Shown piece after piece: positions 1,863-52,594 of a stretch of DNA of 64,000 nt. Source of the stretch: Actinernus sp. WN-2022 (lineage: Eukaryota > Cnidaria > Anthozoa > Actiniaria > Actinernidae); the NCBI GenBank assembly GCA_030867875.1, contig JAOWCC010000569.1, positions 930,001 to 994,000 on the forward strand. Direction: 5' to 3'. Under the pieces are notes generated by a model that saw only the letters and a program-made list of their open reading frames with translations, was not told the DNA's origin and made no database searches. The position numbers and the translations under genes were made by a program. Position 1 is the stretch's first letter. Each line of letters begins with the position of its first letter.

Positions 1863-2025
1863 AGGCAAGATCTGTATTCTCACAGATGAGCTGAAACAAG
1901 CTCCCCAATAAAGGCTCATGTGGGGGAATTCATTAAAAGTTTGTGAGCATTTGAAAAGATTCCCCCACATGAGCCTCCATTGCAAGCTTGTTCCAGCTCG
2001 TCTGTGAGAATACAAATCTTGCCTG
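1863..2025. repeat. Fold-back element in helicase intron 2
   Basis: The arm from AGGCAAGATCTGTATTCTC pairs with the reverse complement at the other end (GAGAATACAAATCTTGCCT). The inner arms pair too (GGCTCATGTGGGGGAA with TTCCCCCACATGAGCC). Almost the whole 163 bp folds on itself. No coding capacity. Confidence 0.8.
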
Positions 2026-2244
2026 TTGCATATGGTACAATATGTTTGCTTATTTTTGGAATTTTACGGTATTCTTGGTTTGCAGTCATTCCCTCAACAA
2101 TCAAAAGTCAAAGATGCAGCGGCCTTGCACAAAACAAAGATTCTCTTGTTTATTGTCATCAAAGATGCCCACCATGACATCATGTGCAAACTAGCTACAT
2201 GTACACGTAGCTTAAGGTCACCAAAGGTTTGCAGACAAATACTT

Positions 2245-2651
2245 TTAAAGTGTCTATGAAATGAATTTTTTTTATTTAAAATTACACAACTTTACACAAA
2301 AATTGATGTAAAACAAACTTTGAAATGGAAAGACTATTTTTCCTGACCCAAAATAACCACCTTTTGTGCGACAGATTCTAAGGGGACTGGAACACAATTG
2401 TGACGTAAATACCTTTGCAGACGCTTTTGTTTAGAGTTTGAAAACAAAAGCGCGTGCAAAGGTATTTACGACACATGCCTAATTTACATGCTTCTGACAG
2501 AGCAAAATTTGTCGCATGAATTTTGCCATGTTCGACTGAGCTTTTGCAGTTTTGGAGGGTAGGATATTCAGTTATAACAACAGAAGCTGATAACTTAAAG
2601 CTTGTTTCATAAAATTAAGTGAAAACAATTTTCGTTTCATAGACACTTTAA
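2245..2651. repeat. TTAA-flanked MITE
   Basis: A 407-bp element with TTAA at both ends and terminal inverted repeats AGTGTCTATGAAA / TTTCATAGACACT. It contains an inner hairpin (CGTAAATACCTTTGCA with its complement, about 2402-2472). TTAA target sites are typical of piggyBac-type cut-and-paste elements, so this is probably a non-autonomous relative. It lies in intron 2 of the first helicase copy. Confidence 0.7.
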
Positions 2652-3237
2652 GAGTAAATTAGGTGTTGTTTTTTTACTTCCGGACAAAAACAAAAGCACA
2701 GAAAAAAGTGATTGATTGAAAACTAACTCCAAGCGTATATTTCATATCATCATACATGTATCTCCCTCAATTTTAAATACATGTACATTTGGACAGCATT
2801 TTCAGGGAATAAAACAACATATAGCTAAAAGGAAGGTAATCAGAATTTCGGCTGCCTTAACTTTTAATACCAGTAGTTATTTCACTGGAACTTCACGAAA
2901 CAACCTACCTTCTTTGCAAAATGATCGTAACATTGCCAACTTTCCAAATGCATCCCGTTCGGCTCGTTGATCTTTTCCTTTACCTCTTTTAGAGTTCCTA
3001 TATAAGGAGAGAGCATTCTTAGTTCGACTTGACTGATAACTTACAAATGCAGTGGCTATTCGTACAGGAGCCATACATGGACTTCAGTTTGCTATACTTT
3101 GTGTGGGACCCTTTACACCAACTGTTATTTTCTATTCGTACAGGATTCTTCTGAGAATGTATAGTGACAAAATTAGAATGCTAACCCGACCATAAACTTA
3201 CCCTAACCATTTCCAACACAGTTCCCAGGTAGAAGTG

Positions 3238-3528
3238 TGCCAATGTCGGTGTTAAACATCTAACTAAATAACTATTTAGTTAACTAATTTAAGTGATGTC
3301 AACTAAATCTAGTGTAACTAAATTTCCAACGGTCACTTTGAAATCCAGGGGCCCGCATGTAAGCTTTCAGTTCGAAAATACAACTGTTCTCATACAAATA
3401 ATACATAGACTAAGACACATCTTCCCCGGATCTGAGAACGGTTAGCACATGACTTTTTAAATTAGGTACGTCAACTAAATTTAGTCAACTATTTAGTTTG
3501 TTAGATGTTTAACACCGAAGTTGGCATG
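3238..3528. repeat. MITE with about 30-bp terminal inverted repeats
   Basis: The left end carries CGGTGTTAAACATCTAAC and the right end GTTAGATGTTTAACACCG, each followed inward by ACTAAATAG-type repeats that also pair. The interior is non-coding. It directly abuts the next element and lies in intron 1 of the first helicase copy. Confidence 0.75.
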
Positions 3529-3536
3529 CCTCTAAT

Positions 3537-3773
3537 GCACCTATCAATGTTAAGCCCCAGGGGGCGGGCAAGGGGTGGGGATTTGACAGGCAGGGCTATC
3601 CCGAGGGTGGGGATTTTGACATGCATTACCTGCCCCAGGGTGGGATTATTTACAGGAAACATCGGGAAAATAGGGCAGAATTTGATATATTTGACCAAAT
3701 GTGTTGTCCCGAGGGAGGTAGCCTGCATAGCCACCCCCCCCCCCCCCCCCTGGGGCTTAACATTGATAGGTGC
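3537..3773. mobile_element. GCACC-family MITE, 237 bp
   Basis: The ends are perfect inverted copies (GCACCTATCAATGTTAAG and its complement), followed inward by CCCCAGGGGG runs. The dinucleotide AT flanks both ends (3535-3536 and 3774-3775), which fits a 2-bp AT target duplication. The long open frames read on both strands here are products of the palindrome, not genes. The same end sequence bounds the 6.3-kb insertion at 14791-21110. Confidence 0.75.
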
Positions 3774-4526
3774 ATACATGTAACTAAACGATGAGTTTTA
3801 TGCATTCTCACTCTGAAGAATCCCATACGAATAGAAAATACAAGATAACCAGTATGAACAATTGGTTACGAACAATTGAATTATACGTTGAAGTTTATGT
3901 ACAAGCGAAAATAAAGTCTGGTAAAATTCAGGCTTTTTCGATAACGTACAGATTTGAAATCGAGATTCAAAAATGTAAAAATAAAATGTAAAAATGCTCC
4001 AAAATGCCATTCTTTTATAACCCATAGAGAAAAGAACTGTACCTCTTTCCAGTCCAGGTTTCTACCGTATGGGACTCGTCTACCACAAGAGCAGCAAAAT
4101 TTGAATGAAACCTGTTGTCTCCTTTCAGCACCTCGAGGAAAGCTGTGTCGAGCGCGTCTTCGGCAGAAGCAAAGAGGAGCTGGAACTTCCCTTCCTTGAT
4201 GTCATCGAGCTTTGCATCTTGGAGCGAACCGGCAGATAGTCCCAATGACCTAGCCTCTTCTAATTGATCTTCAATGATACTCTTCAAAGGGCAAATGATG
4301 ACAACATAAGCCCGCTCTTTCGTAATGAATTCCTTCACCCTAACCAAGAGTTGGAAAATAAAACTTTTCCCGAAGCCAGTGGGAAGTACGGCCAGTACAT
4401 CTCCTTGGTTTACAAGCTGACGAACTGCAGCCCTCTGTTCCTTGAGCGTGAAAACCCTTGACAGGACAAAAAATGTAAAGATTCTTCGAGGGTTTTTGAA
4501 AACACGTCTTCACAAACATCCGCCAT

Positions 4527-5403
4527 TTTAATATCTGCCGGGCAAAGTGAGAGTTTGATTGACAGATTATAGCGCTCAGCCAATAAGTCGCACCGTTCGC
4601 TGGCGAACGGAGATCAACAAAAGCTCTGCGGTCGATTGCAGGCTCTCGTGCTAACGCACTCGGCTCCGGTCGCTCGGGCCCGGTCGCTCGGCCTTCGCCC
4701 TCGGTCGGCTACACTCTGCATATATCCCCGAGAGTCTGCTACGCAGGCTAGTGTGACAGAAGATACATATTTTGAGGCGAACATTTGCATAATCGCTCGT
4801 TGGAAATGGCTGATTTTTGTGTACTGGAAGTACAACTTTACAAGTCAACATGTGTCCGAGTGAACAAAGGTTTCTACAACACTCTAGTAGTCTTACTTAA
4901 GAAATGGATTTTATTTCCGGCGAGACCTTACTCTGTCAATAAGAGGAGACAATGAAGCGAGAATTCAGTGGAAGGTTCGAAAACCTAGGATATTTTTATT
5001 TGGAAAATGTTTGCATCAGAGCCGAGCACATGGAGGCCGATTTCAAGATTTCAATTCACTGGAATCTGCAGGTTAGTTATTTTCGAATGAAAGAAACTAT
5101 TAAAGAAAGTAGACTATCTAGGAGTTAAGCCGGCTAAATACTCGATATTTTAATACGTGGCTCCAAGAGAAACGTTTTCGAGTTAAATGTACTCGCAAGG
5201 CGTCAACTAAACTGACCGAACGCCAAAGTAAGTTATCTACTTCTGTTTTTATTCATTGTCTATTGAAATGACTGTCTTTGTGGCGATATTTACCGTAAAA
5301 TGATTTAATTCAGGCGAAATATTTGACTTCTTTATGAAATTGTTATTGACAACTGATTTCAATTGAAATTCACGGCTGACAGTGCACTCAGTTTGAATAT
5401 TAA
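4527..5403. other. No gene seen upstream of helicase copy 1
   Basis: This should contain the promoter of the minus-strand helicase. A GC-rich patch (4630-4760, with repeated CGGTCGCTCGG) gives short open frames on both strands that look like base-composition artefacts. No TATA-like box stands out. Confidence 0.35.
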
Positions 5404-5596
5404 AAGGGTTAGAGACTTTATGTTTGTGCTTTATCGGCAAAATACAGTCACTTGCTGACTGTACGATGAACTCAAAATTTCTTCATACTGCATTCGGCCT
5501 TCGGCCTCATGCAGTATTCATTATTTTTCGTTCATCGTACAGTCAGCGCGTGCCTGTATTTGTCGATAAAGAACTCACAAGCAGTCTCTAACCCTT
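5404..5596. repeat. Fold-back element
   Basis: The outer arms AAGGGTTAGAGAC / GTCTCTAACCCTT and the inner arms TGACTGTACGATGAAC / GTTCATCGTACAGTCA pair along nearly the whole 193 bp. The loop is the palindrome TTCGGCCTTCGGCC. Non-coding. Confidence 0.75.
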
Positions 5597-5612
5597 ATAC
5601 AATGTGACTTTG

Positions 5613-5858
5613 TTAGACCAGAATACTTTGTGGCTCCCCATGGCGATTAAAATGGCCATACCTGGCCCTAAACCTCAACATTTCCAGATTTTTTGAGTAT
5701 TTAAAAGAGGCAATAAACCTGTCACTCACTACAATCTTGCTGTACCACCCATCCTGCCGTAACACCTTTAAAATGTTCTCATTGTCAAGTACCCTCTTGT
5801 ACTTATTAATCAAGCTTTTAAACAGGTGCATTATATTTTCCTCTGTATGGATGTGCAA
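5613..5858 (-). CDS. Hypothetical 81-residue frame
   Basis: The frame begins MHIHTEENIMHLFKSLINKY and stays open for 81 codons on the minus strand. Composition is plausible for a protein (mixed charged and aromatic residues), but I recognise no family and see no partner exon. It could be a chance frame between two repeats. Confidence 0.2.
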   Translation of the reverse strand: MHIHTEENIMHLFKSLINKYKRVLDNENILKVLRQDGWYSKIVVSDRFIASFKYSKNLEMLRFRARYGHFNRHGEPQSILV

Positions 5859-5987
5859 TTCTTAAACATAGCGCGTAGATTTAACTAGACCTCCTCCGTT
5901 CTGTTCTGTTCAGCGGTAACGACTGCTTTAAAGCAATCAAAAACTTCCATAGGAACTTTCCATGAGAAATGTACTGTCCAAGGCCGT

Positions 5988-6251
5988 TTAAAGGGGCTAT
6001 GTCATGGTACTGCGCATGTATCGAGTAATAGCTCGTTTAGTGGCTGTTAATTGGATACAAACAGGATTTTCAATATTTTCCCTGGAGACTGTTTATATAC
6101 ACTGTCTGTTAGTCATTTTTGCATATTTGCTCTCATTTAAAGCATCCCACATGGCCGAGAGGTTCGTTAGTTCATATCAAAATCGGTGGAAATAGCTCTT
6201 TCCGGCCCGGCAAAACGAATGTAAAGTCTTACCGTGACACAGCCCCTTTAA
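5988..6251. repeat. TTAA-flanked MITE
   Basis: A 264-bp element with TTAA at both ends and terminal inverted repeats AAGGGGCTATGTCATGGTA / TACCGTGACACAGCCCCTT. Its ends resemble those of the element at 53142-53459 (AAGGAGCAGTGTCACGAT), so the two look like one TTAA family. Non-coding. Confidence 0.75.
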
Positions 6252-7121
6252 GGATGTCTTCGGCTTCATTCCTCGTGTAAGCACTCGACTCCAATGTACC
6301 ATTGTTCGGGCAAAATACGAGCAGGTTGTGTCAAATGAAACTTGAACGCCTTCTCATTACTTAGAGTATGCTTCTTCACAGCTGCTCTACTTAATTCTAG
6401 AACATCGCTAGCAATTGCTGTCGATAGCCATTTATTTGTTGCATGTACTTGTTCGCAGCTTCATGAACTAATACAATGAGCTCCGCCATTTTGATTTTGA
6501 GAGCACACAGCTGACTACGAAGCACAGGCTCAGCCTAGCTGAAATGGCCGGACTTCCGAGCCCGTCAGCCCGGCGTGTCAGCGTCTGCTGTCTGCTACTG
6601 TCTGATTTTCTGTGCTCTTCTCTTGTGCGACGCCACCTCGAGGTGTTTATCAAGAACAGATTTTCTCACATGGTCGACTACAAGATTGTACGTGGAACAA
6701 AATAACAGGCCATTATCAGCATGAAATATACCTTGTGGGTATTGATTTACTCGATCTCGAGCTGAAACATGTATCGCTTCGTGACGTTTCCGTTTAATTT
6801 CCTCTGTTGATTATCTTAACAAAATTATCCATGTTTTTAAAACATAATTGAACTCGCAAAACGCTATGGAGGAACACGATCTGAAAAGAATTCACGTTTC
6901 CCGCGGAAGAGAGTTTTTTTCTATTCCAAATTGTGATTCGCCACTTAGGAAACCTTGTCTCTAGATTTTCCACCAATAATGAGGCACGTTCTATCGAAAT
7001 TTAGACAACAGGCCCCCACGGTTTTCAACATAGAACGCCTTGTCATTCCCGTTGTGAATCGTCGTTTTGATTGCTCAATGTTCGACGATATGGGAAGGAA
7101 ATATACTGTTAACTTCGGATA
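6252..7121. other. No gene seen
   Basis: Several open frames of about 60 codons occur on both strands, but none is supported by splice sites or family resemblance. This is the left flank of the ISL2EU-type element. Confidence 0.35.
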
Positions 7122-7240
7122 AATTCGCTCTTATCAGGCGTCCGCCATGTTTGTTTGAAAGCGAGGCTAATTACGCATGGAAATCCAATAGGCGGCGGCA
7201 ATCACTGGCGTTTCTGTAAGTGGAGCTCCAACAGCAGTTC
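7122..7240 (+). repeat. Left terminal inverted repeat of the ISL2EU element
   Basis: It starts AATTCGCTCTTATCAGGCG and runs through GGAGCTCCAA. It matches the complement of 11430-11545 with about nine mismatches. The nuclease gene's expected start codon lies inside it. One T is missing here compared with the right copy (CAATAGGCGG against CAATATGGCGG), which removes that ATG. Confidence 0.85.
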
Positions 7241-9123
7241 AAACTGGTTTGGACTGGACAGCCTCGCTAAAAATCCTCCCAAAAATCGATATGAAGGATG
7301 TCGAATCATTTGTTTACAGCGAAAAGGCTCCAAGAAGTGGTTTGACGAAGGGATACATTTTGTTTTGTGAAGGATTCGTTCACGAGTTTCAAGGTCAGTA
7401 GCGAGTAAAACAACTTTGGATATTTAATGTCCGTATTCCTTTTCTTTTTGGGGTATTCTCTAGAACTTATATTTTATTTCTCAGTTGCTAATAATGCAGA
7501 GGAAAAGGATAAAATATATCTGAGATGTAAGTGCTTTAAATCGTTAAGAAAGAACGAGGAACCACACCGGCTTAAGGTCAGTAACTGAGTTACAAAGTGA
7601 GTATACCAGATATTCTCATTTGAACCTCTGATTTTTGTTTGTTTTTATACATGCCCTTCCCTGCTAGCAGAGGTCTCTCTCTGTCTTGGTAAAATGGAAG
7701 GCGAGGGAGATAGAGGTCTCTCCATCGCCTTCCATCAGTTACCAAGACAGAGGGAATACATGCCCTTGCAAGATGAGGACAATATTGCAGAATAACGAGT
7801 AGTTATTAGTCTCCAAATATTATATTTGTTTTTACTTTGGTATGTCTCAGATGTGTTTGCTGGCCGCATCAACTGGCACTTCTCCTAATTTAAAGTACTT
7901 CAGCATTCATGCAGCTGTAAGGCTGGGCAAGGAGTTTGTAACCACAAAAGCGCATTTTTGTACCAGGCAGCTCACTACAGTATGCTAAATATCAAAACAG
8001 TTCCCGTCATCCCTTCAAAGACATCTCTGCCTCAAGAATGGCATAAGCCCAGGTCAGCTGGAGTATCACCTGAGCGCTTACAGAATGTTAAAATCAAGAA
8101 ACCCGAGCTGAAGCCAGAGAAGGGAAGAAAACGATCCATTGATGGAGTTCAAAGCAGCCTCTACAACCCCCTAAGTACACATTTCCCACCCAATAAGTTT
8201 ATTAAGGATTTCCAGAAAGAAATGGTTACTAATTTTCCTGGCACTCAATTTGCAAAGCTGTTTGAATATCCCTCCGAAACAACTGACACAGAATGTAAGT
8301 TTGGTCCTGCTCCAAAGGGTAGTGTTCTGTCCTATCAGCAGAAGGTGATACCAGATTATGCGAACATTATAAAAACGCCCCAGGCTAAAGAGTTTCCTAA
8401 CCTACCAACGAGTACATGTTCTCAAACATACACTACAGTACTTGAAAAAAAGGAGGAGTCATACTTTGAAGGGCAGCAAGTGTCATTAGAAGAGTGTCAC
8501 ACGATTGAGGGGCAAACACGTGCCCAATCAGAGAATCCTTATTGGCTTTAGGTGAGAAAAAACAGAGTGACCGCTTTAAAATTCAAGAGGGTAACAGCTA
8601 GGAAAAAGGACTCTGAAAGCCTAGTAGGGCAGCTGAAAAAAAGGTTTAGCAAACGGAAGCCATGAAATATGGTCTAGCTCATGAAGGAGATGCTGCAATG
8701 ATATACGCGGATTCAAAAGTTGTGAATGTCAGGAGGACTGGATTTGTTGTAAACCCTGGGTGCCCCCACCTAGGTGCAAGCCCTGATTATATTGTCTATG
8801 ACCCATCCAATAGTGAAAACCCATTTGGATTATTAGAAATTAAATGTTTACAGTGCTCCTCCACAACAGATGCCAAATGTATGAAGATGTGTAATGACCA
8901 GCCAAAACTAAGAAAAACGCATGAGTATTATTATCAAATACAAGGGCAACTTGGTATAACTGGGCTCCAGTGGTGTGACCTTATGGTGCTGTGCAAGGAT
9001 GACTGGCACATTGAAAGGCTGTTCTTTGACACAGATTTATTTTATTCAATGTGTTGTAAGTTAGATAGATTTTACTTTGAATACTTTTCTTCCTTCATTA
9101 GTACCCTAGATGCAAAATCGTAG
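7190..9123 (+). pseudogene. SWIM zinc finger / YqaJ-type nuclease of the ISL2EU element
   Basis: YqaJ domains are lambda-exonuclease-like nucleases. Exon 1 (about 7190-7393) encodes DVESFVYSEKAPRSGLTKGY; exon 2 (7485-7576) gives IYLRCKCFKSLRKNEEPH in matching phase. The third exon starts at 7851 or 7904 and holds the SWIM finger CSCKAGQGVCNH. The YqaJ core (8662-9123) has LGASPDYIVYD, GLLEIKCL (the E-x-K pair) and YYYQIQGQLGITG. Breaks: the start ATG in the terminal repeat is lost; a frame change probably falls near 7900 if the exon starts at 7851; an in-frame TAG at 8549-8551 sits in WL-stop-VRKNRVTA, where a glutamine would suit; and the frame shifts near 8660, just before MKYGLAHEGDAA. It converges on the transposase gene. 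Confidence 0.8.
7676..7757. repeat. Short fold-back insert in a nuclease-gene intron
   Basis: The arms TGTCTTGGTAA..ATGGAAGGCGA and TCGCCTTCCAT..TTACCAAGACA pair. The unit is bracketed by the direct repeat ATACATGCCCTT (at 7649 and 7759), which looks like a target duplication of about 12 bp. Confidence 0.55.
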
Positions 9124-9721
9124 AACCTATGCAAAAATGTGTGGCCTACAGTACTTAGTATAAATTCTGAATTAAAACATTTATTTAAGCTTCGCCAAAA
9201 ACATGACACAGTCTACTGAAAGAGCAGTAAGAAGTTGTTTATAGTATGCAGTTTCATAATTGTATGGCAGTTCGTTCCAAAGTGATTAGCATTTAAAACT
9301 TTGGGAAAACATGGCTGGCAGCTAGGGCCATGGCTGTCCGATTTCATACAAAGTTCTCAGTCTTATTTCAAATAGCAATATGAAAGCTGACACAATTTCA
9401 GATTACTTATTTAATTTTTGCATGCAATTTCATCTGACAAGGTTAGTTTTCTCATGTGATCATGGTTGACCAGTGTAAATAAATAAAAAACAGCATTATT
9501 GCATAGGGTCTAATGGCAAAGGCCTGGATATTGCAGGGATACTGTTGGGAACTGCTCATCTATTTATGGAGTAGAGAAGCCTGGGGAGAAATGAAGGGCT
9601 GGGATTTGAAAAAAAGAGCTCTGTTATTATGGCAAGATGGCTTAACATTATTCCTATTATCTGGGGAGTTACGTAGCTCCTGCTCCATAGATAACAAGCA
9701 GTTTTTCAAAGATTGATCATG

Positions 9722-11414
9722 TTAAAACAAGGGGCCTTGAAAGTTTGTAAGAATGCAGCAAATTGTCCACAGCTGATTAACAGTTGAGGCCAAGGAGAGT
9801 GGTACAGTAGCATCAAAAATGTGGTATTCTTTCACTCTACGTATGGCACGTTCTACGTGTATCCTCAGTTTTGCAATCTTTTGAGTTTTCTGCACATCTT
9901 CAGGAGAAAACTGTGCCTTTGCTCTAAGAAATGGTGGTATATTTAAATGGAAGTTGATCGGTATCAGTAAATCCTCAATAGTAAAGCCCTTATCAGCCAT
10001 TACCCCATCACCAGCTTCTAACAGTTCAATAAGTCCACATCTCCTTGTTATTTCCTTATCACTTATTGAACCAGTGTAGAGTGAAGAAATAAAGGAAATG
10101 GCCCCTGCTGGTGTTATGCCTACCAAGCTCTTGAGAGTTGTAGAACTTTTGTAGCTTGAGTAAAATTCACAATGAAGTACTAGTGAAGATGGAGTTTGCA
10201 CCTTGATTTCAGTACAATCGATTATTACTCTGCAATTAGGAAACAGTTCCTTAAACTGACCAGGCATTGTCATATCAATCTGCTTCCTGCTTGACCAAAT
10301 TGGAAGGGTACCCAAAACACAGTACAGGAAATTGGTCCAGGTGAGTAGTAATCTGCTTACTGTCGTCAAAGAAATCCCAAATCTAACTGCCAAATCCTGC
10401 TCGAATAGACCTAGCTTTACTTTACAAAGGAACAAAAATAACTGATCTTCAAGCCCTAGTGCTTGATGCCTAAAAGGAGACATATTTAATTCCAAATTTG
10501 ATTCATTGTTCTTCTGGTTACTATTCCGGCCCCTTTGCAGTTGAGCCCAAGATATCATGTTATCTGCATTTGGAGTAACTAGCAAAAGAAAGCTCTTTAA
10601 TAGCGTATGTGATGGAAATCCAGTAAAAAATCTGATTACCATCATACATAAATTTTGCCAGACCAAAACGATGTATTTGTGTAACTTTGTCTAATTCCAT
10701 TTTAAGTCTATTGATTTCTTCTCTGGCTGCATCTAACTCCTTCCTTACTTTAAAAGTACCAGATTCCGACACTGTTGTTAAGGAGTTTGTGGCCAGCGTG
10801 GGGCTGTCCTGGACAGAAGCAGACAAAAAACGTGAGGAGATATTTTCTGTAGCAGTCTCTTGGTCTGTAAGACGTTTTCGTCTTTTTGGAGGAGGTCGCT
10901 TTGGCTTTGTTGAAGTCCAAGAAAAAATAGAAGGTATAGCAGAAGACTGCAGAACTCGTTTCCCGGTGAGAGTTTTCTTGAAATCCCCGGGTTTAAAGTG
11001 AGCAGAGCATACCTTTGTGTGTGGCAGTACCTGAGTGAAAACAAATGAAGATGTTCACTATAGTAACTATCATGATCAACGGACAGAGTAAATTGAGCTC
11101 TATAATAAAGGACTGAACAGTCACTGCACACGTGTAGTCAAAGACATAATGGGCTACGAAGATGAAGACACAATAGATAATGACAAGGTCAGCACTCAGT
11201 AGACAGTACCGACAAGTCTGAAACAACACTTCCCAGAAAATGAGTCAGTAAATACTCATTTTAGTACCTTAAAATCAGTGCCAACATCTCTTCGAACCTT
11301 AATGATCCATTCAGCACGCCTTTTTGATTCCTTAGGAAAACTGTGGAAAGATATCTCGCTACTATAACGTGAATCATTGGTACACAATGGCACACAACAG
11401 TGATACGCCGCCAT
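9722..11414 (-). pseudogene. THAP-domain DDE transposase of the ISL2EU element, one frameshift
   Basis: This is the cut-and-paste transposase of the element. Exon 1 (11414-11268) opens MAAYHCCVPLC and carries the FHSFP and RAEWI blocks of a THAP DNA-binding domain. Exon 2 (from 11030, phase 0) supplies VCSAHF, completing the C2CH zinc ligands, then IPSIF. A basic stretch and a coiled coil (KELDAAREEINRLKMELDKV) follow, then a helix-turn-helix (LAVRFGISLTTVSRLL) and the DDE core: first Asp in IIDCTEIKVQTPSS, second in VMADKGFTIEDLL, Glu in IHVERAIRRVKEY. Stop at 9722. The frame changes by one base in a run of six T (A on the plus strand, 10625-10630), where five would keep it open. That is either a real lesion or a homopolymer read error. 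Everything else in the frame is intact. Confidence 0.85.
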
Positions 11415-13177: not shown

Positions 13178-13734
13178 TGAGGGGATCCATGACGAGCCCC
13201 AGGGGATAAAAAAGTGTTTTGCCTGGATTTCAAATCCTCGCAAAATCACCAGAAGCTGGGTACTCGCCACCTGACATTTCCCTTGAGTGATGTATTTTTG
13301 TTTTTCTGTATCCCAAGAGGAAATGAACCGTATTACTTATGGCAACGGATGCTACAAACTATTACAAAAAGTGCTATTGTTCACAATGTCAACTAATACA
13401 GGTAAAATCAGGTATCTTAAGCTAACATTCGTATTTTGATATAATTGATAAAATGTGCATGCTTTTTGTGCAACGTTGCATTCTTTCAATCCTATTTCAT
13501 AATTAGTATTACGTCGACACCAAATAATATTCTGTAATTTATCTGTAAAAAAAACTGATTATTTGTAAATCCTGAACTTTACCGGGATTTAAACAATTTT
13601 CTTCACTAACTGTAACTGTATAATTGTGTTACGTCTTTCGCTGCACTTCATTCTATGTGGTAACAGATGTTACAAAAAAGCTTTATCAATTGTAAAGCTT
13701 CTTGCTGTCTATTTTCAGCCTTAATTATTGGCCA

Positions 13735-14788
13735 AAACCCGGCCATCATGGAAGCCTTCAAACATTTCAAGTGATTTGTCGCTAAACTCTAAATTCCTCC
13801 GAGATTTTTCGTGAGAAGTAGGCTCCTCGATGACGCATAGCACATCACTGAAGTCTACCCATATTACATCCGGTTAGGTGGACCACTTGAAGCGGAGCAG
13901 CAGTGTTGTCGATGTTTTCATGAAGGAAACTTTAGCATCCTTTTCATTCTTATCCACATCAAGGACCTGTCCAACGTACCATGCCTTGTCACCGATAGCA
14001 GGGACCCAGTCACCCTTCTCCACCACAATGCCATTATTTGTATCTGGAAAGAGAGAACACAACAAAAGGAACTTATACTTTTGTAAAAGCGTTTGGCAAG
14101 TGTATGAAACGAAAAACTCGCATCTTAAATAATGTATTAATTACCTTCAATGCTGGCAGGCTTGATCTGAGGTGTTTCCCATCCACATGGGGGAATCGAC
14201 AGCAAAACTTCCGTTAACAAAGCAGGTGCTGCAAAAACACTAGGTGTCTTTTACAGCGATTAATCTGAGGGGCTAACAACAACAGCACGTATCTTCATCG
14301 TTCCTTGTACCGCTGGTACATCGCCAAACCCTTCGATGTCTGTTTTGGCTTTGGAATAGTCTTCATTGGATACGAAGTAGTACTTGATTGAGCTGTCCTT
14401 CCTTTTCTGTGCCCAGCTATAGAAATATTTGGCTCCCTGGATGGTCACTTTCTGTTGCCTGACTGCCTCATTGGCCAGCCTCTTGGTGGTGCCCCCTACA
14501 CCATCACAGAGACCTTTCCCATGGCCAGCCTCAAAATAGTGCCAAGATGCTGGCATTCCAAACTCTTCATCGTGCTGCATCACAATGTAAAATATAGTTT
14601 ATTCCTATATTCACTATGGGGCTGTCAGTGTAGTAATGAAGGTAGCGCACATCAGGATGCATTGTTTCCAGTTCTGGTATCAGCTTCCTGATGATAGCGT
14701 ACACAGTACTCGCGTTTTGGCTTAGTTCATCTGAGGTAAACACGGTACTCTGGTTTGCGAGGCTAGTATCATCGGATCCACCACAGTA
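13735..14788 (-). pseudogene. Unknown multicopy family (FEAGHGKG motif), C-terminal half
   Basis: This is the downstream half of a gene whose upstream half lies at 21113-22530. I know the family only as a multicopy one of unknown function in cnidarians. Seen here: LANQSTVFTSDELSQNASTV, PDVRYLHYYTDSP, then WHYFEAGHGKGLCDGVGG. A second exon (14228-14145) has IPPCGWETPQIKPASIE, and a third (from 14043) has WYVGQVLDVDKNEKDAKVSF..RFKW. The GT-AG sites between exons fit. An in-frame TAA at 13874-13876 is followed by the still coding-like PDVIWVDFSDVLCVI. Frame changes also fall around 14590-14640. The break with the other half is the 6.3-kb insertion starting at 14791. Confidence 0.7.
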
Positions 14789-15085
14789 ATGCACCAATCA
14801 ATGTTAAGCTGGGGGGGGGGGGGGGGGCAAGGGGCATGGGGCATGGGGCAGGGAGTAGACAATTTGATGATTTTCACCATCAAATTCCCCACCCTTGGGC
14901 ATACATTTCATGTCAAAAGTACTTCAAAATCCCCCCTGGAGGTCTTTGATCAATAAATGCAGTGGGAGGGGAAAACATGAGTATTAAAGTCAAAGCAACA
15001 CATAAACAAGCTGAATGCTCCAATATGTCTTCACAATTTCAACTAAGCGAAAAGTGGGAATAAAAGCACCTATTATTTATGTGCC

Positions 15086-15460
15086 GTGTCTGATATCACA
15101 GTGCTGTGCAAATTTCGGCAACTGTCCTCTCTCACTGAAGAATTTCAGTACTTCGCTAAATTGGTACACTTCTTACAGTCTGTACCAGGATCTGGAAGAG
15201 GTAACGGCAAAAAAATTTCCATCGACCTCCCGGATACCATGTTATCTCATTCGTTTGACCTTGTTGACAACTGGGTGGCTACATCCATCTTGATAGTAGC
15301 AACAAAGCACAAATGCAGTTCTTTGTTCAAGTGCCAATCGAATGTTGACTTGGATTTGTCATACATTACTGGGTACTCCTTTGCTAATTTCGCCTTTGCA
15401 GCTTTACTGCCTTTCATCTATAAAACCCGACAGCAATCAAGCCAACAAGTGACTACGTGA
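15086..15460 (+). CDS. Hypothetical 124-residue frame
   Basis: The frame opens MSDITVLCKFRQLSSLTEEF and has a central polar stretch and a hydrophobic FANFAFAALLPFIY segment near the end. No family is recognised and no partner exon seen. It lies in the left part of the 6.3-kb insertion and could be an exon of that element or a chance frame. Confidence 0.2.
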   Translation: MSDITVLCKFRQLSSLTEEFQYFAKLVHFLQSVPGSGRGNGKKISIDLPDTMLSHSFDLVDNWVATSILIVATKHKCSSLFKCQSNVDLDLSYITGYSFANFAFAALLPFIYKTRQQSSQQVTT

Positions 15461-15994
15461 CTACATTCAAACATTTAAATTACCAAAAAGCATCAACATG
15501 AATTTAAAAAACATAGCCAATGTACAGTGTACAAGAAAAAAGCAGACTTGAAGGTCAATTTACTAACATGTTTAGGCCACTGAAGCGCTCATCTTCGCCC
15601 AGATAGAAGCGAGAGAACAACGCCAAGCAGCGAATGTCATGTGACATGCACAGTGCAGGATAAAACCATGGTACCAGGCTCTTCGCGGTTTGACAAATAG
15701 GAAAATTAAATAACCTACCTACGGGTCAACAGACAGACAGTATTTTATTTGGAGTTTTGTACGAACGTGTACATCAACTTGAATCCAAATATTTTATACA
15801 GTATATCTAACTAAGATTGTTTTAAGAGAAAAACAGTGAAATATGTATTTCGCTGTTGTTTCACTTGTGAGGATTTGAATCTAATTAAATATTCTGGCGC
15901 GATTGACATATGTTGAAAATCGTTTTGTAGAGTTGCACTGACACCAAAATCAAAGGGATCTATTTGTTTGTAATGTGGTTACCTGATTTCTGAT

Positions 15995-16706
15995 GTAGAC
16001 AAGAGGAGAAAGTTATTTGACGGCTCTAAAAAGATCCAAGTTTGCAAGAACCTCGACAGAATTCTTGAAATTTCCTGTGAACTCTGCCCAACTGGATCTG
16101 GGTTTTCATACTTATCGAACGTTATTTGCCGTTCTTGTTCGGAAAAGAATGTGACCTTATTGAAGAAAGTCGATAAAATAACTGAAAGTTTCAAGGCAGC
16201 TCGAGAAATAATTAGAAAACGGAGAGGAGAAACAGTCGTCAAGCGGTCGAGAAGTGAAGCTGAAGAAGACGAAACAAGAGACAAGTCAAACAGTGTAAAA
16301 AGACGTGTCTCGCTCTTTCCCGACTCTCAAGAGGACTCTCAGCATCCCTCAACATTTGCTACTTCATTGAAAACCCAGTCAACGCAAACTGAGGCATCGC
16401 AAACTGAGGCATTTCAACCAGCACTCTCAAAACAGCCATGTTCCCTATGGAAAGCCAACTGGTAGTTCTAAATCGGGAGATTTTGCCAAAATCGAGCTGT
16501 ACAAGCGAACAGGCCAACCGAAAGCAGAAAGCCCACCGAAAGTTCCAAGCCCGCCACAACAGGCAAATCCACCAGCAAGTCCCCCGTTATCCAGTTCTTC
16601 TACTGTTTCGAGCAGTCCGCCGGATTTATCGTGGTCTATTTCCTATGCACACCAGTTTTTCCTCGATATTGAAGAATCACGTTTTATGCCAGCTCTTAAA
16701 AAATAA
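15995..16706 (+). pseudogene. ZAD-like cysteine domain protein remnant
   Basis: An open stretch upstream of 16151 reads RRKLFDGSKKIQVCKNLDRI, then ISCELCPTG and NVICRSCSEKNVTLL. This CxxC pair with a following CxxC resembles ZAD-type zinc-associated domains. A basic, charged linker follows (RKRRGETVVKRSRSEAEEDE), then Ser/Thr/Gln repeats (STQTEASQTEAFQ). Around 16440 the frame changes and continues as YGKPTGSSKSGDFAKIELYK, a proline-rich part, and SYAHQFFLDIEESRFMPALK before a stop at about 16706. The protein may be longer if more exons exist. The single frame break makes it a likely pseudogene. Confidence 0.45.
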
Positions 16707-16754
16707 AGATTAAACAAAAATCAGCTGAAATCATGGGACAACTGAACAATCTAG

Positions 16755-16975
16755 AGTGCCAGGGTGGTGCAGTAGTTTAGTGCTTCGCCTCTCACCACTG
16801 TGGCCCGGGTTCCATTCCCGGACGTGGTACCATATGTGAGTTGAGTTTGTTGGTATCTCACCCTTGCTCCGAGGGTTGTTCTCCGGGTTCTCCTGCCTTC
16901 GCAAAAACCAACACACTAAATTCCAATTCGATCTGTGGATTAGCCGGGACCTGGCTTTGATCAGCCCGCATGGTT
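16755..16975 (+). mobile_element. tRNA-derived SINE
   Basis: The head has an A-box-like GGTGGTGCAGTAGTTTAG and a good B box (GGTTCCATTCC) at tRNA-like spacing. The tail (GTGAGTTGAGTTTGTTGG, then CTCCGGGTTCTCCTGCC) matches a cnidarian tRNA-SINE body as I remember it. The 3' limit is uncertain. Confidence 0.7.
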
Positions 16976-17840
16976 GTTTCAGGTCTCGTTAGAAATTCAG
17001 ATCTTTGTGTAAGCCAAAAAGAGTACCTGGCATCACTATTGTCAGAGTGTTGTTTGAGTGCATGCCACGATGAGGAAAAACAGACCGTTTCCCAAGTGAT
17101 AGACACAGTAGTCGAGAAATGAGGGGCCAAGGGATCATCGAAGGAACTCATATCTGAAGAAATAAGACAAGATAAACATTCATCGAAGGCATTGCTGCAA
17201 AGCCAAATACCTAGCACCAGAAGTTCGGAAAGGAGGGAGGGAGACAGAGTAAGGCAAGCGATGTCTTTTCTTTACGTTTTATGCTGAAGTCGATTTCAGT
17301 ACCTTTAGGATTCTACAATCGTTAAAAAAGCTACTTCTGATATTGTAAACAACAGTAAAATCATTCATGTGATTCACTAAAATATATGCTCTTGCTGCCA
17401 TTTACAGTAAAGAAGAAATGGGCTTCATCTGGTTGACAAACGGAAATATATGGAATATAGTACACGCTCAGTATGACTTTTATTAGTGTTGTCAGAAATT
17501 CCAGTGCAAGCGAAAGAAAAGCTTAAAACCAGGTTACAATCTGGAGTAGCGCAATATTCCACCTATTTCGCCTACCCTGGGTGGGGAGACGATTTCCCCC
17601 GGGCGTAGGGGGAGGTTGAGTTCGTGGTGGCACAGACATAATTACACGGAAAATTATGCTGGGAATTTTAAACGAACTAAAACCCTACCCTGATTCATAA
17701 AAAAAACGTAACCGGTCAGTAGACAAGATCTTACTCACATATACTATAGCTAGGGTTCTCAAGAAAACCTCACAGCTGTGTGACCACTTTTATATATGTC
17801 AATCCATTATTTAACTTAATTCTCAGATAAAGAAAATAAA
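16976..17840. other. No gene seen
   Basis: One minus-strand open frame (16858-17217) mostly overlaps the SINE and has no recognisable family. The rest is unremarkable apart from a short G/C-rich patch near 17585. Confidence 0.35.
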
Positions 17841-17982
17841 CTTACCTTAAGAGACGGTTTGCTGTTGTCCTGTTGTTTCTCTGGAGTCTAGAAATGGCAT
17901 TTCAAAGTTAGAGAAATGCCCCATAAACGCCATTTCTAGACCCCAGGGACACAAAAGGACAACAGCAAACTCTTAAGGTAAG
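17841..17982. repeat. Fold-back element
   Basis: The arms CTTACCTTAAGAG..GTTTGCTGTTGTCCT and AGGACAACAGCAAAC..CTTAAGGTAAG pair. The inner arms TCTAGAAATGGC / GCCATTTCTAGA pair as well. Confidence 0.75.
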
Positions 17983-18089
17983 TAAGTAAATAAATTCTTC
18001 TTCCTATTAATATTTATTCTAGCCGCTTACCACTCAAGCAAACTTGTACAATAGATATTTATGTATTTTCTGTGCTCCAAATATCCTCA

Positions 18090-18265
18090 TTTATTTTTCT
18101 TGTGATAGGGGTCAACTAGAAAGCCTATGGCTCCTTTGACCTCTATGCACATTCTTGAAAATCATAACTATTTTATTATTACCGTATCTCTCTTTTTCTT
18201 TCTACGATTATTTTATTGTGTAATTATCTTTAAAAAAAATAGTGCAAAATAAAACGAACTTGAAC
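18090..18265 (+). mobile_element. 3' end of a LINE, plus strand
   Basis: A non-coding stretch ends AAAATAAAACGAACTTGAACTTG with three TTGAAC repeats. Short tandem repeats at the 3' end are typical of CR1/L2/RTE-type elements. No coding part is present, so this is a strongly 5'-truncated copy. Confidence 0.5.
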
Positions 18266-18307
18266 TTGAACTTGTCAAATGGCATCAAGGACAGTGTAAT
18301 GATCTCT

Positions 18308-18665
18308 AAAGCTACTTCACACCAGCGACGAAAGCGTTGTAATCGTAATCCCAGTCGTAAGAGAGTTACGATCTAGTGTGAATAAATAATTCATAAGCAA
18401 AATGTAAGCCTCGCTTTCATGATGTTTGCTCTGTCTGTATATGTAAGCCTGGTTATGAGCCTTGTGATTGGCCCATTCTTATGATTGCACTTGTAATTAT
18501 GTTTACCCAGTTCACACTACATGTAGATCGCAAGCAAAAAGAAAACCTTCTGATCCTTATGATTACGATTATGGCGCTCTCACCACGTTGCTTACAATTA
18601 CAATGTTTGATTCACGCTAGGTTTTAATGCTACTTACGATTACAATGCTAGTGTGAACAGGCTTA
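18308..18665. repeat. Imperfect terminal-inverted-repeat element
   Basis: The left end GCTACTTCACACCAGCG..TTGTAATCGTAA pairs imperfectly with the right end TTACGATTACAATGCTAGTGTGAACAGGC. The interior repeats TTATGATTACGATTAT-like motifs. Non-coding; hAT-like affiliation is only a guess. Confidence 0.5.
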
Positions 18666-18751
18666 AACAAATGATAACATAATAAAATATTGGCGATTAA
18701 GTAATACTTTTCTTGATTGAGTATGGAATGTTATTCTCAGACTCATTTAAT

Positions 18752-20750
18752 CTAAGATTCGGACTCTGTTGAAGATTCTTCTTCAGAACTGATAATTCCA
18801 TGCATTTTTTTAGCTCTAAAAATAGTGCTGTCAGATGAAAAGGACATATCACTATCATTGTCTGACAGGCTGTTAGTGCTAGCATCAGTAAAGTAAATAG
18901 TAAATAGTTTCCTTCACACGTTTGTCAGTTCTCTTATGGTACATTGCAAAAAGACGGCTTCTGTCATCTTTTGGCTCCTCTCCTGTTGGTGTATAATATG
19001 CCTTGCCCCCTAAATATTGGCTAAAAAGTTCATAAAGTTCTTTCATGTGCTCTTTCCTTCTGCAGAATACAATCACTTTGGCTGTGTTCTGCTGCTTTTG
19101 TTCCAACTCTTCAATTAACCAACTGAATGATCCATGTAAGTCAGTGGCATCAATCTCTACAACAGAGTAACGAGTGTCAGGTCTATTTGGGTCACTTAAT
19201 ACCTCTACACAGTCCTTCATACATAAATCCTTTATGATAATCATCTTTGTTTGCCTGGTTGCAGTAGCAGTTAAAGACACAAATGGCACTTCCTTCCGCA
19301 GCAGGGAACGTAGCTCTCCCAGACGGCCATAGTCACTCCTGAATGCTTATGTACTTCCTTGGTCTTTCCCCCTGAAATAAAGTAATTTATGTTATGTCAT
19401 GTTATGTTGAGAACAAATGATAAACAAACTAGCTAGTGCCTTTCATAAATGTTAGATGCATCTTAGGGGGAGTTTACATGATACTGGAACGAGTTTCATT
19501 CCGGAATGAGTTCACTCTGGTTCCTCTGTTTACAATGTACATGATACTGGAACAAAACTGAAGTCATCCTGGAATGAATTCACTCTGGTTCTCGTATCGT
19601 TAGGTATCGAAAGTTTCATTCCAGTATGAGATATGTACCGGTATCATGTAAATGCGGTATCACTTTCATTCCGTAACGAAATCAAGTGACCGAGCAGACT
19701 GGGGTGGGTAATGCATGCGTATTTGACTTTTACTCTACTGAGCCGTGTTTACCCTTTTTGTATTCATGCTGGTTTTTGATAGTGAGGGCTCCACATCAGT
19801 CTGATTCTCATCCCTTACACTGACTTGCATGTAAGAAAGTCGATCTGGAATGAAACTTGTTCCAGTATCATGTAAACACCCCCTTAGTTTGTTTAGTTTG
19901 GCTGTGCCATTCTGCCAAATTTAACAGAATAACATTGGTTATTTTGAAAACATTGCTTCTCTTGGGAGTTTGATAAATCTAAAGTTCCACTGTAATAAGT
20001 TTTTGATTAATATTGTTTGATGTTGGGCTGCACCTGGTATTGCAAACTACACATGTAGGTTACTTGTAAATTGCAAAGCTCATGCCTCATGTCCACTTCT
20101 AGATATGATTAATAATTTTTTTTTGGATGCATGCTAAACAGGAATAAGCTTGTTTTGTCCTGCCATTCCTCAATAAACAACAATTACCCAATTCTATAAA
20201 GGCAAATTGCAGTCTGAAGGATAGCTACATGTACATGTACTAGAAAAAAGATAAACTCTTACCACTTTGCAATGCAGTGACTTTCGTCCACAAATACAGC
20301 TTTGATGAAATCTTTCAGGTACTCGCTTCGAAAGATTGTTCTATGATAATTCAAAAGCGCTTCTGGGCTTCCAAACACCAGGTTATACTTGCCGTTCGTG
20401 ATGTCATCGAGTTCAGTTGCAGTACTTTCCGGGCCGATGCACGCTGCAGCAATACCACGTTTCTTCAACGAGGCAACTTGATCCTTCATAAGTGAAATAA
20501 GTGGCCCTATAATGATACAAACTGACTTAATCAAGACCTGACTTCGAGCTTGCTGGACACCGAAGGCCAAACAGTCGAAACAAAGACTGTCGAAACAAAG
20601 ACTCTTTCCCGATCCCGTCGGAGAACACATAAACACATCTTTCCCATCTAGAAAGGCTTCAACAACCTTTCGCTGACTTTCTCTTAAAGTCGTATAACCA
20701 ACTTTTTCTAAACCCAAGGCAATTGCTTCCTCGATCTTGTTTAAAGACAT
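18752..20750 (-). pseudogene. RecQ-like DNA helicase, copy 2, nonsense and internal deletion
   Basis: Exon 1 (20750-20263) starts MSLNKIEEAIALGLEKVGY and has CSPTGSGKSLCFD (Walker A), GPLISLMKDQV and VDESHCIAKW (motif II). A short in-place duplication reads CFDSLCFDCLAF. Exon 2 starts at 19371 in matching phase with WGKDQGST, then an in-frame TAA at 19349-19347, then AFRSDYGRLGELRSLL, VPFVSLTATAT (motif III) and VIVFCRRKEHMKELY. The frame ends at 18885, right after RVKETI. The usual motifs V and VI are missing. Another frame then gives an acidic tail (LSDNDSDMSFSSDST..SSEEESSTESES) ending at 18752. The arrangement suggests that a deletion fused the helicase core to its C-terminal tail. The start at 20750 fits family starts better than the upstream ATG at 20777. 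Confidence 0.8.
19466..19883. mobile_element. TTA-flanked MITE, Harbinger-like
   Basis: The ends GGGGGAGTTTACATGATACT and, in complement, GGGGGTGTTTACATGATACT are inverted copies. TTA flanks both sides (19463-19465, 19884-19886), the 3-bp duplication typical of PIF/Harbinger elements. It lies in the intron of helicase copy 2 and has no coding capacity. Confidence 0.75.
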
Positions 20751-20887
20751 TCTGATTCTACGATGTGAGAGATTCAAGATGGCGGGTCATGACGTCATGG
20801 CTAAATGCCCTATTTCTATTGGACAGCTTTGTTTACGTCACCGGTGGAAAAATACACCGTTAAATTGCGCGCGAAACGGGTAGCAAA

Positions 20888-20998
20888 AGTCCCTTAAACC
20901 AGAGAAGTGAAAAAAGTGAAAATCAACCAGAGAAGTGAAAATCTCGTTTTAAAGAAGCGAATGTGGGAAATGAAAATCTCGTTTTAAGGGACTTTGAG
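20888..20998. repeat. Short inverted repeat near the right end of the 6.3-kb insertion
   Basis: AAAGTCCCTTAAA pairs with TTTTAAGGGACTTT. Inside, CAGAGAAGTGAAAA and GAAAATCTCGTTTTAA each occur twice. Confidence 0.5.
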
Positions 20999-21112
20999 AA
21001 AGTCTAGTGGAGGATCTATCATTAAGAGGAACAACTGGACATGGACAAACATGGACGATAAAATCCCTATCCCTGGTCCCACCTCCCCCCCCCCCGGCAT
21101 TCATTGGTGCAT

Positions 21113-22530
21113 GATATGCCACCACTGGGTGCAGAGTGACCATTATTGTGTTCCAGTAGGCAGACTGGACCTCTTGCAAAGACGAGCATGTGTAATTTTA
21201 GGCAAAGTCCATTTGGACGATCATATGGCCTTCCTGGGGATTGGACTTCAGGGATTTAAACTGGTCCTACTGTACTGTCACTCTGTTTGCATGGGCCCTG
21301 AATTCTTTGACATCAGCTCTAGAAATGACAGAGAACTTTCCTTTATCAACTACTGTTTCGACGATAGACATTGTCTTCCTGTTTTCAACTTCCACTGGCT
21401 GTACTTTACTTTCTTGTCGCACTGCTCAAAGACATCATCAAGTTGATCATCTTTGCACTGGCTGATAAAGACGTCAGGGCTTTTGCTGACCTCTATCCCC
21501 ATTGACCTCAAACAGAGCAGTTTAAGAGCTAGGTTTATGATGGCGCTGGCACAGGCAGGTGTGGTGTGGGACGTGAATGAGGTGGTAAAAATGTAGCTAG
21601 GACGAAGTTTACAGAAAAGAGACCTTGAGATCTTAACATCTGGATTATCAGCCTTAAACTTTTGATGCAAATTGCCTAGATAGTCATTGAGATATCGCTT
21701 TTGGTCTTTCTCCTCCTCGTGCTTCTTATAGTCAGTCTTTCCAGGCATCATTCTTGAGTTGTCATCATGTAACATAAAAACTCAGTTACCTTCACTTTTA
21801 GCTATAGGTCCAACTTTGGCTTTGCGCTGGAGTAACCGTTGTGAAATCCCAGTTCTCATGTTAATCTGACTCAACGGGCAATACTTTCTTACAATTTTCC
21901 CACTATCCCTAATTTTCGCTGCCTACTTTCTGGTGGACCACATTCTCTTTAACTTCCTGGATTAAGGCATTTGCAAATTCCAGTTTCTTCTGTATCTTGG
22001 GTGATACACGTCTTGGGTTGAGGCTTGCCTCCCGAAGTTCTCGACGAGATCTGTTTTTCGGTGTATTTCTTGCCGTATTGTTGTCACTGGTACAGCTTAA
22101 TTTTGCAGCAGAACATTGTGCCATTTTTCGGAGCCTCCAGGTTTCCTTCTGTGCATCCTTTTTTGCGTTTTAAGGTATTGTATTTCACAGTGCACATTTG
22201 ATAGAGCCCTGCTTACTCTCCTTCAGCTACTTTCTCGTTTCGCAGCACTGTCAAAGTTGAATTTTACAAGTAGCAAGGAGGACTGACTGCTTTGGCCTCT
22301 CGTTCTACGATTCCTGTCGAGTACGTTCTGTTGTGCTTTTCGGGTCTGCACAGCCACTACTTTCTTTTGTTTCTCACGATACAACTGAATTCGTTGTTGT
22401 TGCTGTAGCCTCTTTTTTTAAGAGCCACCTGGTCGAGTTATGTTGTGGGCACGTATGCTCGCCTTTTCTTCGCCTTTCTGCAGCTTTTGCCGTTGCCGTT
22501 GCCGTATTTCTGCTACAGTTTTTTGCCATT
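21113..22530 (-). pseudogene. Unknown multicopy family (FEAGHGKG motif), N-terminal half
   Basis: The upstream half of the gene continued at 13735-14788. The first part (about 22530-22140) is a basic, Gln/Lys-rich region (EIRQRQRQKLQKGEEKAS, later QLYREKQKKVVAVQTRK) with an in-frame stop near 22410. Then come RSRRELREASLNPRRVSPKI and LEFANALIQEVKEN. The next block has DDNSRMMPGKTDYKK, YLNDYLGNLHQKFKADNPDV and SLFCKLRPSYIF. The last has QYSQWKL-like and VQMDFA..NYTCSSLQEVQSAY, ending in VTLHPVVAYH at the insertion site. Several stops and frame changes (near 21790, 21900 and in the last block) make it a pseudogene. Function unknown. Confidence 0.65.
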
Positions 22531-52481: not shown

Positions 52482-52582
52482 GAGGGAGGGAGAGAGAGAC
52501 AGAGAGACAGAGAGACAGAGAGACAGAGAGACAGAGAGACAGAGAGACAGAGAGACAGAGAGACAGAGACAGACAGACAGAG
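52482..52582 (+). repeat. AGAGAC microsatellite
   Basis: GAGAGACA-type repeats (AGAGAC unit, with AGAC at the end) over about 100 bp. The long open frames read in several phases here (SLSLCLSV, ERQRDRET) are repeat artefacts. Confidence 0.9.
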
Positions 52583-52594
52583 AGCTATATCGAA

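Follow-up and report, generated by a model that had tools for sequence, protein, structure and literature searches.

The 6.3-kb segment bounded by GCACC ends in the genome of Actinernus sp. WN-2022 is an approximately 1-kb element (hereafter, the GCACC element) that carries a LINE-like fragment and is broken by a separate helicase transposon at positions 15856–21006. All coordinates are positions in the window, the 64,000-nt stretch of DNA that was analyzed (assembly GCA_030867875.1, JAOWCC010000569.1:930,001–994,000, forward strand). The preliminary description of this DNA had treated the 6.3 kb as one insertion and suggested, as one of two possibilities, that the GCACC ends delimit an undescribed element carrying a helicase. 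The segment is instead a composite of nested insertions, and the helicase lies in a different transposon, which has ends of its own and, in its family, 9-bp target duplications. Almost certainly, the segment is explained by successive events: insertion of the GCACC element, presence of the LINE-like fragment, duplication of the locus, and then insertion of an AcademH-like transposon.

Borders and distribution of the GCACC element

The outer borders are as first described. The left terminal inverted repeat, GCACCAATCAATG (positions 14791–14803, plus strand), is preceded by AT (14789–14790), and the right end, GCACCAATGAATG, which starts at 21110 on the minus strand, is likewise preceded by AT (21111–21112). 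When the flanks are joined with one AT, they read as HPVVAYHYCGGSDDTSL in a single frame, which confirms the reported in-frame joining, although this frame contains other stops; Pfam detected no family above the cut-off in the gene-like flank. The left body of the element (14791–15723) has a counterpart at the same site in L002/L009 with 83–87% identity, and sequence comparison places the right body at 21038–21110, including the right inverted repeat (21098–21110). The left body contains a gene remnant (about 15085–15460, minus strand) that recurs in several GCACC copies. A Pfam search with the minus-strand remnant piece, in its L002-like form, gave no family above the cut-off, and no relatives of the remnant were found among candidate proteins of 0.55–1.75 times the length of the 106-aa query.

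A 237-bp MITE with related ends had been reported elsewhere in the window, and it is indeed present at positions 3537–3773, with GCACCTATCAATGTTAAG at each end, AT on both sides, and no helicase. The 20-base pattern consisting of AT and the left end, ATGCACCAATCAATGTTAAG, has 79 exact copies in the host genome and none when read backwards, indicating that the pattern is commoner than expected by chance. AT precedes all 31 of the GCACC-type ends examined, among which the 10-base flanks take 19 different forms; one of these ends (L058) had been chosen by a pattern that included AT. The support for the AT duplication is family-wide. In the seven copies for which both ends were found, AT is common to both flanks and there is no longer duplication, the flanking bases being A|AT|A (three copies), T|AT|T (three copies), and A|AT|G (one copy). 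None of these seven copies contains a helicase. GCACC/AT copies occur as MITEs of about 0.2–0.5 kb and as longer copies with the gene remnant.

Within the GCACC element, a fragment of a high-copy, LINE-like repeat is present in two parts on the minus strand. The first (15724–15854) matches L031–L036 with 83–87% identity, and the 31 bases of the second (21007–21037) are identical at at least 38 other places. Frames in L031 and L033 contain a CxxC...HFLV(E/K)CPLYNN motif. About 20 bp of the LINE-like sequence is missing beside the nested element.

The nested helicase transposon

The nested element (15856–21006, minus strand) was delimited by piecewise alignment to the 12,005-bp copy L029+L056, with 89–98% identity, and by comparison with short copies (L043–L054). 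Its own end, TAGACTTTCTCAAAG, lies at 21006 on the minus strand, and the helicase-side end (20972–21006, minus strand; TAGACTTTCTCAAAGTCCCTTAAAACGAGATTTTC) occurs elsewhere with other flanks. The window copy retains this end but lacks approximately 112 bp at the far end and approximately 6.2 kb from the middle; the junction of the internal deletion is at 18269–18274, and the deleted part corresponds to about 4167–10334 of the 12-kb element, including the DUF6589 gene. Because the far end is lost, the 9-bp duplication of the window copy is not visible. The stretch at 16429–17572, a gap between aligned pieces, has no counterpart in the full-length copy. A tRNA-like, SINE-like repeat was noted by eye inside this stretch at about 16757–17035; scans for tRNA genes and Rfam families gave no call in this region or in the other stretches covered.

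The first helicase exon (20259–20786, minus strand) encodes a DEAD domain (PF00270, E = 1.3e−18) and has four full-length exon matches with 91–95% identity. The second exon (18885–19346, minus strand) is broken: it lacks residues 161–427 and has a stop codon close to the beginning. Its match to Helicase_C is weak (E = 0.004, below the cut-off). The RecQ-like helicase pseudogene described previously is real as to this first piece, but with the stop codon and the deleted core the helicase is dead and the coding capacity of the window element is lost. To judge from the AcademH literature, the helicase presumably served the transposition of the AcademH-like element; no tie between it and the GCACC element was found. 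The open frame at 15974–16465 (plus strand), formerly described as a “ZAD-like remnant” within the 6.3-kb insertion, corresponds to an exon of the full-length copy L029+L056 (residues 1–152, 96.7% identity) that lies close to the far end of that copy, and parts of it also occur in short copies. This exon is probably the start of the transposase gene of the AcademH-like element, and Pfam detected nothing above the cut-off in this frame or in a 366-aa frame.

The end of the nested element gave 413 candidate matches in the genome, and among the 40 listed, 39 lie outside the window. The TAGAC end was found with differing flanks in L020, L029, L037, L038, and L042 and in all 12 further copies (L043–L054). 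A second end was sought in 14 copies, and an exact 9-bp target duplication was present in 12 of them, namely, 10 of the 12 copies L043–L054 together with L020 (CCAAGTATA) and the 12,005-bp copy (CCTTTATTG); L048 and L052 showed no duplication within the fetched stretch. The ends have the form TAGACTT...AAGTCTA, the inverted repeat being exact over 7 bp only. Short deletion derivatives account for 11 of the 12 measured copies with both ends found, and the 12,005-bp copy is full-length, containing RecQ-like helicase, DUF6589, and ZAD-like frames. The L029 frames contain PF00270 and PF00271 and match RecQ-type PDB chains (best E = 5e−15), and the DUF6589 frame was identified with PF20231 (E = 7.8e−26). 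We assume that DUF6589 marks Academ transposases; the word did not occur in the literature searched. Six short stretches lying upstream of related helicase copies were inspected, and the TAGAC end was not seen in three of them (L039, L040, and L041); it is also absent from L030. The AcademH-like family is probably young in the Actinernus host.

Paralogous loci and a second nest

The order of events can be read from two paralogous loci. L002 (C635:149351744) is the same site as that in the window, with flanks 95–97% identical. Its element is 1,232 bp in length and comprises the counterparts of 14791–15854 and 21007–21110 (83–97% identical) without the helicase segment. At the nest point, L002 retains ACTATGTTTTGGGAGTTCAG, a close variant of the sequence found in six of six fetched LINE-like copies, out of the 38 other places listed. 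With this sequence intact, L002 represents the empty site that preceded the nested element rather than the outcome of a deletion, and the helicase transposon arrived after the locus duplication, in the window copy only. The other paralog, L055 (90% identical), is the one empty paralog found and lacks the whole GCACC insertion, but its junction (CAGTAAT|ATGC) is 3 bp shorter, so that this site is no proof of the 2-bp AT duplication.

Another GCACC element, L010, also contains a RecQ-like helicase, located some 0.7 kb in from the left end, and a near-identical duplicate of it exists (L005 versus L003, 99.9%; helicase match at C540:51324430). The L010 helicase is contained in a 10,026-bp element (843–10868 in L010) whose inverted ends are perfect over 87 bases and begin with TAGCCTGAATGTC; in its target duplication, TGACTACTT/TGCCTACTT, eight of nine bases are the same. 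Directly past this element, the GCACC sequence continues as it does in L007, from which the insertion is absent. The helicases of L010 and the window match at 33–37% and are at different points of the GCACC element; the nest in L010 is independent of that in the window and involves a different AcademH-like element. An alternative delimitation of L010 as a 9.6-kb GCACC element (287–9875) was rejected, since the “end” at 9875 is the edge of a short MITE, as judged by eye, and the GCACC sequence resumes after 10868, beyond the nested element.

Alternative explanations

That the GCACC element is itself the helicase carrier, with L002 and the short copies as its deletion derivatives, is hardly credible, although L010 and its duplicate do adjoin a RecQ-like helicase. 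As described above, the L010 helicase belongs to an element with its own ends, is only distantly similar to that of the window, and is differently placed; moreover, a deletion could not have restored the unbroken LINE-like sequence of L002. With 150 of the 152 helicase matches in the genome considered, a match lay within 10.5 kb of 4 of the 79 exact ends: the window, L010, its duplicate, and C942:4693095, the last of which was rejected because it is a 513-bp MITE without a helicase. The expectation that a helicase would recur between GCACC ends at a fixed place fails in the paired copies (0/7), and the window and L010 are separate nests. L002 and the nested ends show that the helicase is present only through an independent later insertion, the very finding that the preliminary description had named as counting against its proposal. 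Its other suggestion, a cargo-filled derivative, came close, in that later insertions did fill the GCACC element. An assembly artefact joining unrelated pieces is equally improbable: the segment is indeed pieced together from different repeats, but its outer junctions recur at the independent locus L002, and elsewhere the nested element has other neighbors at its helicase-side border.

The affiliation of the GCACC family is a separate question. ISL2EU, of the PHIS superfamily, resembles it in having short terminal inverted repeats and a 2-bp AT target duplication, which is the rule for ISL2EU in PMC4482050, where the target is given as A|AT|T. Membership is possible but rather unlikely: AT precedes the GCACC-type ends throughout, but A|AT|T occurs in none of the seven paired copies, and a Pfam scan of 11 frames from GCACC copies and their surroundings (nine frames and two of L015) detected no transposase, THAP/DDE or otherwise, and no YqaJ. 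In addition, none of the 79 exact ends lies within 10.5 kb of any of the 150 YqaJ matches considered, from an incomplete list of 152 drawn from 682 candidates. It is more doubtful still that GCACC/AT elements constitute a lineage of DNA transposons separate from all known superfamilies and serve AcademH-like elements repeatedly as a landing place; two independent nests, in the window and L010, were seen.

Proposed history and relation to AcademH

The preferred explanation of successive insertions begins with a non-autonomous GCACC element, approximately 1 kb long, that moved by cut and paste and duplicated 2 bp (AT) on entering a gene-like sequence, itself probably a transposon relic. The LINE-like fragment may have entered the GCACC element or may already have been part of it. 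The locus with the GCACC element was then duplicated, after which the LINE-like fragment received an AcademH-like transposon, and this in the window copy alone. This transposon copy is dead: its far end, approximately 6.2 kb of its middle, and approximately 20 bp of the neighboring LINE-like sequence are missing. The loss of the middle may have preceded or followed the insertion.

The nested element looks like a broken copy of a known kind of helicase-carrying transposon, and we infer the name AcademH from its resemblance to this lineage of Academ DNA transposons (Kojima 2020, as cited in PMC10045372 and PMC10799480). Both combine a RecQ-like helicase gene of superfamily II with another large gene, and the 9-bp duplication of the nested family fits the 9 or 10 bp reported for AcademH in PMC10045372; the window copy itself is broken. 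The helicase lies inside the 9-bp-flanked copy L029+L056, whereas the GCACC element has neither a helicase of its own nor such a duplication. The AcademH lead in the preliminary description was good for the nested element but not for the GCACC element. The nested family differs from AcademH in its inverted repeat, TAGACTT, which is short, with just 7 bp exact. AcademX, of the same superfamily, differs from the nested element in its 3–4-bp duplications and its nuclease in place of the helicase according to PMC10045372, in which the nuclease pairing is implied. The excerpts of PMC12730594 and PMC9179366 contained nothing further on AcademH or GCACC-like ends. A Helitron was dropped as a candidate for the nested element on the basis of the inverted ends and target duplication.

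These results remove a false lead, because without the genome copies the nest mimics a new superfamily of helicase-carrying transposons. Furthermore, an AcademH-like family with clear 9-bp duplications may help in studying the role of the helicase in transposition.

Structure of the 6.3-kb segment and its insertion site

The 6.3-kb segment is a nest of insertions, in which the RecQ-like helicase is a passenger, brought in by another, AcademH-like transposon of which a broken copy survives here. The outer element, here called the GCACC element, has the borders given in the preliminary description, with the ends GCACCAATCAATG at 14791 (plus strand) and GCACCAATGAATG at 21110 (minus strand) and AT on either side; a 237-bp MITE at 3537–3773 has related ends and AT flanks. 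When the flanks were fused with a single AT, one frame ran through the joint (HPVVAYHYCGGSDD); because this frame carries stops farther out, the interrupted gene was probably a relic already. The two parts of this "host gene" (13688–14790 and 21113–21728) have their own stops and few relatives in the genome; the joined flanks gave five matches, four of which were the two inserted loci. By eye, part of the gene resembles a frame adjoining a Peptidase_C48 (Ulp1) frame in another stretch of the host genome (L023), and the gene may be a transposon relic.

Two paralogous places were found for the insertion site. In one of them, L002 (contig C635), a GCACC insertion occupies the site that it occupies in the window; the other, L055 (C734:36360886–36361183), lacks the insertion and is continuous across positions 3–300 of the 300-base joined query (90%). 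Because L055 is three bases shorter exactly at the joint (CAGTAAT|ATGC), it is alone no proof of an AT duplication. AT precedes all 31 GCACC-type ends with ≤3 mismatches in the window, L009–L028, and L058, ends that represent 19 different 10-base flanks and are not all independent. The query behind L009–L028 started at GCACC, the pattern behind L058 included AT, and the right end in the window (21110), with >3 mismatches, is outside this count.

The element at L002 is 1,232 bp long, with counterparts of window positions 14791–15854 and 21007–21110 (83–97% identical), and window 15855–21006, including the helicase, is absent from it. In the window, 15724–15854 and 21007–21037 both match one single high-copy repeat; the 31 bases at 21007–21037 occur exactly in at least 38 other places (40 matches listed of 53 candidates), and the repeat is unbroken at the point of the helicase segment in all six copies fetched. 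A frame of this repeat in L031 contains ERTCSQCPNETEDEKHFLVECPLYNN, which we take to be typical of LINE proteins. Since L002 keeps a close variant of the unbroken repeat sequence at the nest point (ACTATGTTTTGGGAGTTCAG), it is a genuine empty site with respect to the helicase segment, which makes the nest younger than the locus duplication. The window has lost approximately 20 bp of the LINE-like repeat to the left of the nest.

The nested element and its relatives

The nested element (15856–21006, minus strand) has its right edge at 21006, reading TAGACTTTCTCAAAGTCCCTTAAAACGAG on the minus strand, and the same end occurs with unrelated flanks in L020, L029, L037, L038, and L042. A search of the genome with the 220 bases at 20787–21006 gave 413 candidates; the 40 matches listed, one of them the window itself, were all ≥95% identical and began at base 1 or 2 of the query. 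This end was present with at most one mismatch in all 12 copies fetched from the 39 non-window matches listed, and in 10 of them a second end (...GTAGCAAGTCTA) followed at 753–1,281 bp, and then an exact 9-bp duplication; no such duplication was found within the stretches fetched for L048 and L052. The L020 copy is 1,169 bp long and flanked on both sides by CCAAGTATA. A 12,005-bp copy (L029 and L056), flanked on both sides by CCTTTATTG, contains two helicase frames, one of 177 aa and one of 476 aa (PF00270, E = 1.3e−19; PF00271, E = 4.4e−12) and, on the opposite strand, a 399-aa frame with DUF6589 (E = 7.8e−26), a 366-aa frame, and a 214-aa frame that is 96.7% identical to the ZAD-like frame of the window. 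Among six further helicase copies, the TAGAC end was found upstream of three (L037, L038, and L042; short stretches) and was not found in the short upstream stretches of L039, L040, and L041; L030 likewise lacked it.

The window pieces 21006–19833, 19817–18903, 18897–18269, 18274–17573, 16428–15916, and 15913–15856 are collinear with the 12-kb copy and match it at 89–98%. Positions ~4167–10334 of that copy, including the DUF6589 gene, are missing from the window, as are the last 112 bases at the far end of the element. There are two smaller alignment gaps in the coordinates of the 12-kb copy: 1158–1830, probably an insertion in L029 because it is mostly absent from L030 too, and 2723–3527, where a deletion in the window took out the helicase core. 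The second exon of the window helicase has a stop close to its beginning and lacks residues 161–427; the helicase is therefore non-functional. Window 16429–17572 has no counterpart in the full 12-kb copy. A tRNA-like (SINE-like) repeat was noted by eye inside the nested element at 16757–17035, for which neither ARAGORN nor Rfam gave a call. Elsewhere in the window, tandem arrays occur at 52493–52819 and 56288–56694, their units being 8, 21, and 112 bases long.

Helicases and other GCACC copies

The preliminary description raised the possibility that the GCACC insertion is a helicase-carrying element in its own right. This idea fails under the refuting condition given there, the helicase having come by an independent later insertion. 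When the 20 stretches L009–L028, drawn from the 40 GCACC-end matches listed, were searched by tblastn with the window helicase, a helicase was found in one (L010). There was none in the seven GCACC copies with both ends found; these include L009, which represents the L002 locus and has its site in common with the window. For four of 79 exact GCACC ends, a helicase match (150 of 152 used; 150 of 1,929 candidates scored) lay no more than 10.5 kb away, namely for those of the window, L010, its near-identical duplicate on C540, and C942:4693095, the last being a 513-bp MITE with no helicase within.

L010 combines a GCACC end with a RecQ-like helicase whose identity to that of the window is 37% in the first exon and 33% in the second. 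Its GCACC sequence, common to L007 and L012, is interrupted at 843–10868 by a 10,026-bp element (L010 with L057) with perfect 87-base inverted ends (TAGCCTGAATGTC...), the flanks of which, TGACTACTT and TGCCTACTT, are identical at eight of nine bases; L007 is the uninterrupted version of the site (TGACTACTTTATCAGG). This element also carries a helicase and a DUF6589 gene (E = 6.3e−26), and is a second AcademH-like element, forming an independent nest. In the window and in L010 alike, the helicase thus arrived with a later insertion, each time at a different point of the GCACC element. The L010 element starts with TAG, as does the nested family of the window. In L012 (G000:C1706:17559000–17568900), dense open frames at 2142–9818, approximately 1.9 kb beyond the GCACC end, resemble, by eye only, the gene set of a polinton- or adintovirus-like element.

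Classification of the two families

A passage of PMC4482050 gives ISL2EU elements an AT duplication and the target A|AT|T. The GCACC element shares the AT duplication, but the target A|AT|T occurs in none of the seven paired copies, the flanks being A|AT|A in three, T|AT|T in three, and A|AT|G in one (L009). The first two forms, found in all six of L013, L018, L025, L026, L058, and window 3537–3773, are AATA on one strand, and this target may be a real insertion preference of GCACC elements; a one-side flank is common to L013 and L026, and likewise to L018 and L058. None of the 150 YqaJ matches used (of 152 listed; 682 candidates) fell within 10.5 kb of any of the 79 exact GCACC ends, and Pfam gave no transposase match in 11 frames taken from GCACC copies or from the sequence around them. 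For these three reasons, we give the GCACC family no superfamily name.

For the nested family, a passage of PMC10045372 describes duplications of 9 or 10 bp in AcademH and of 3 or 4 bp in AcademX, and PMC10799480 counts AcademH among the sources of DEAD and Helicase_C domains. Both the helicase and the duplication of the nested element agree with AcademH. DUF6589, which we take to be a marker of the Academ transposase, suggests that the full-length element may encode such an enzyme. The helicase has 334 relatives at E ≤ 0.001; those named among the 120 listed include sequences from Paramuricea, Dendronephthya, Antedon, Ptychodera, Haliotis, and Mercenaria. In the 1.39-Gb genome itself, a first look for exons of RecQ-like helicases gave 1,929 candidates, of which 150 were scored, and many of the matches listed fall into same-score groups with 30–50% identity to the window helicase. 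Several other helicase-carrying families may therefore be abundant in this genome.
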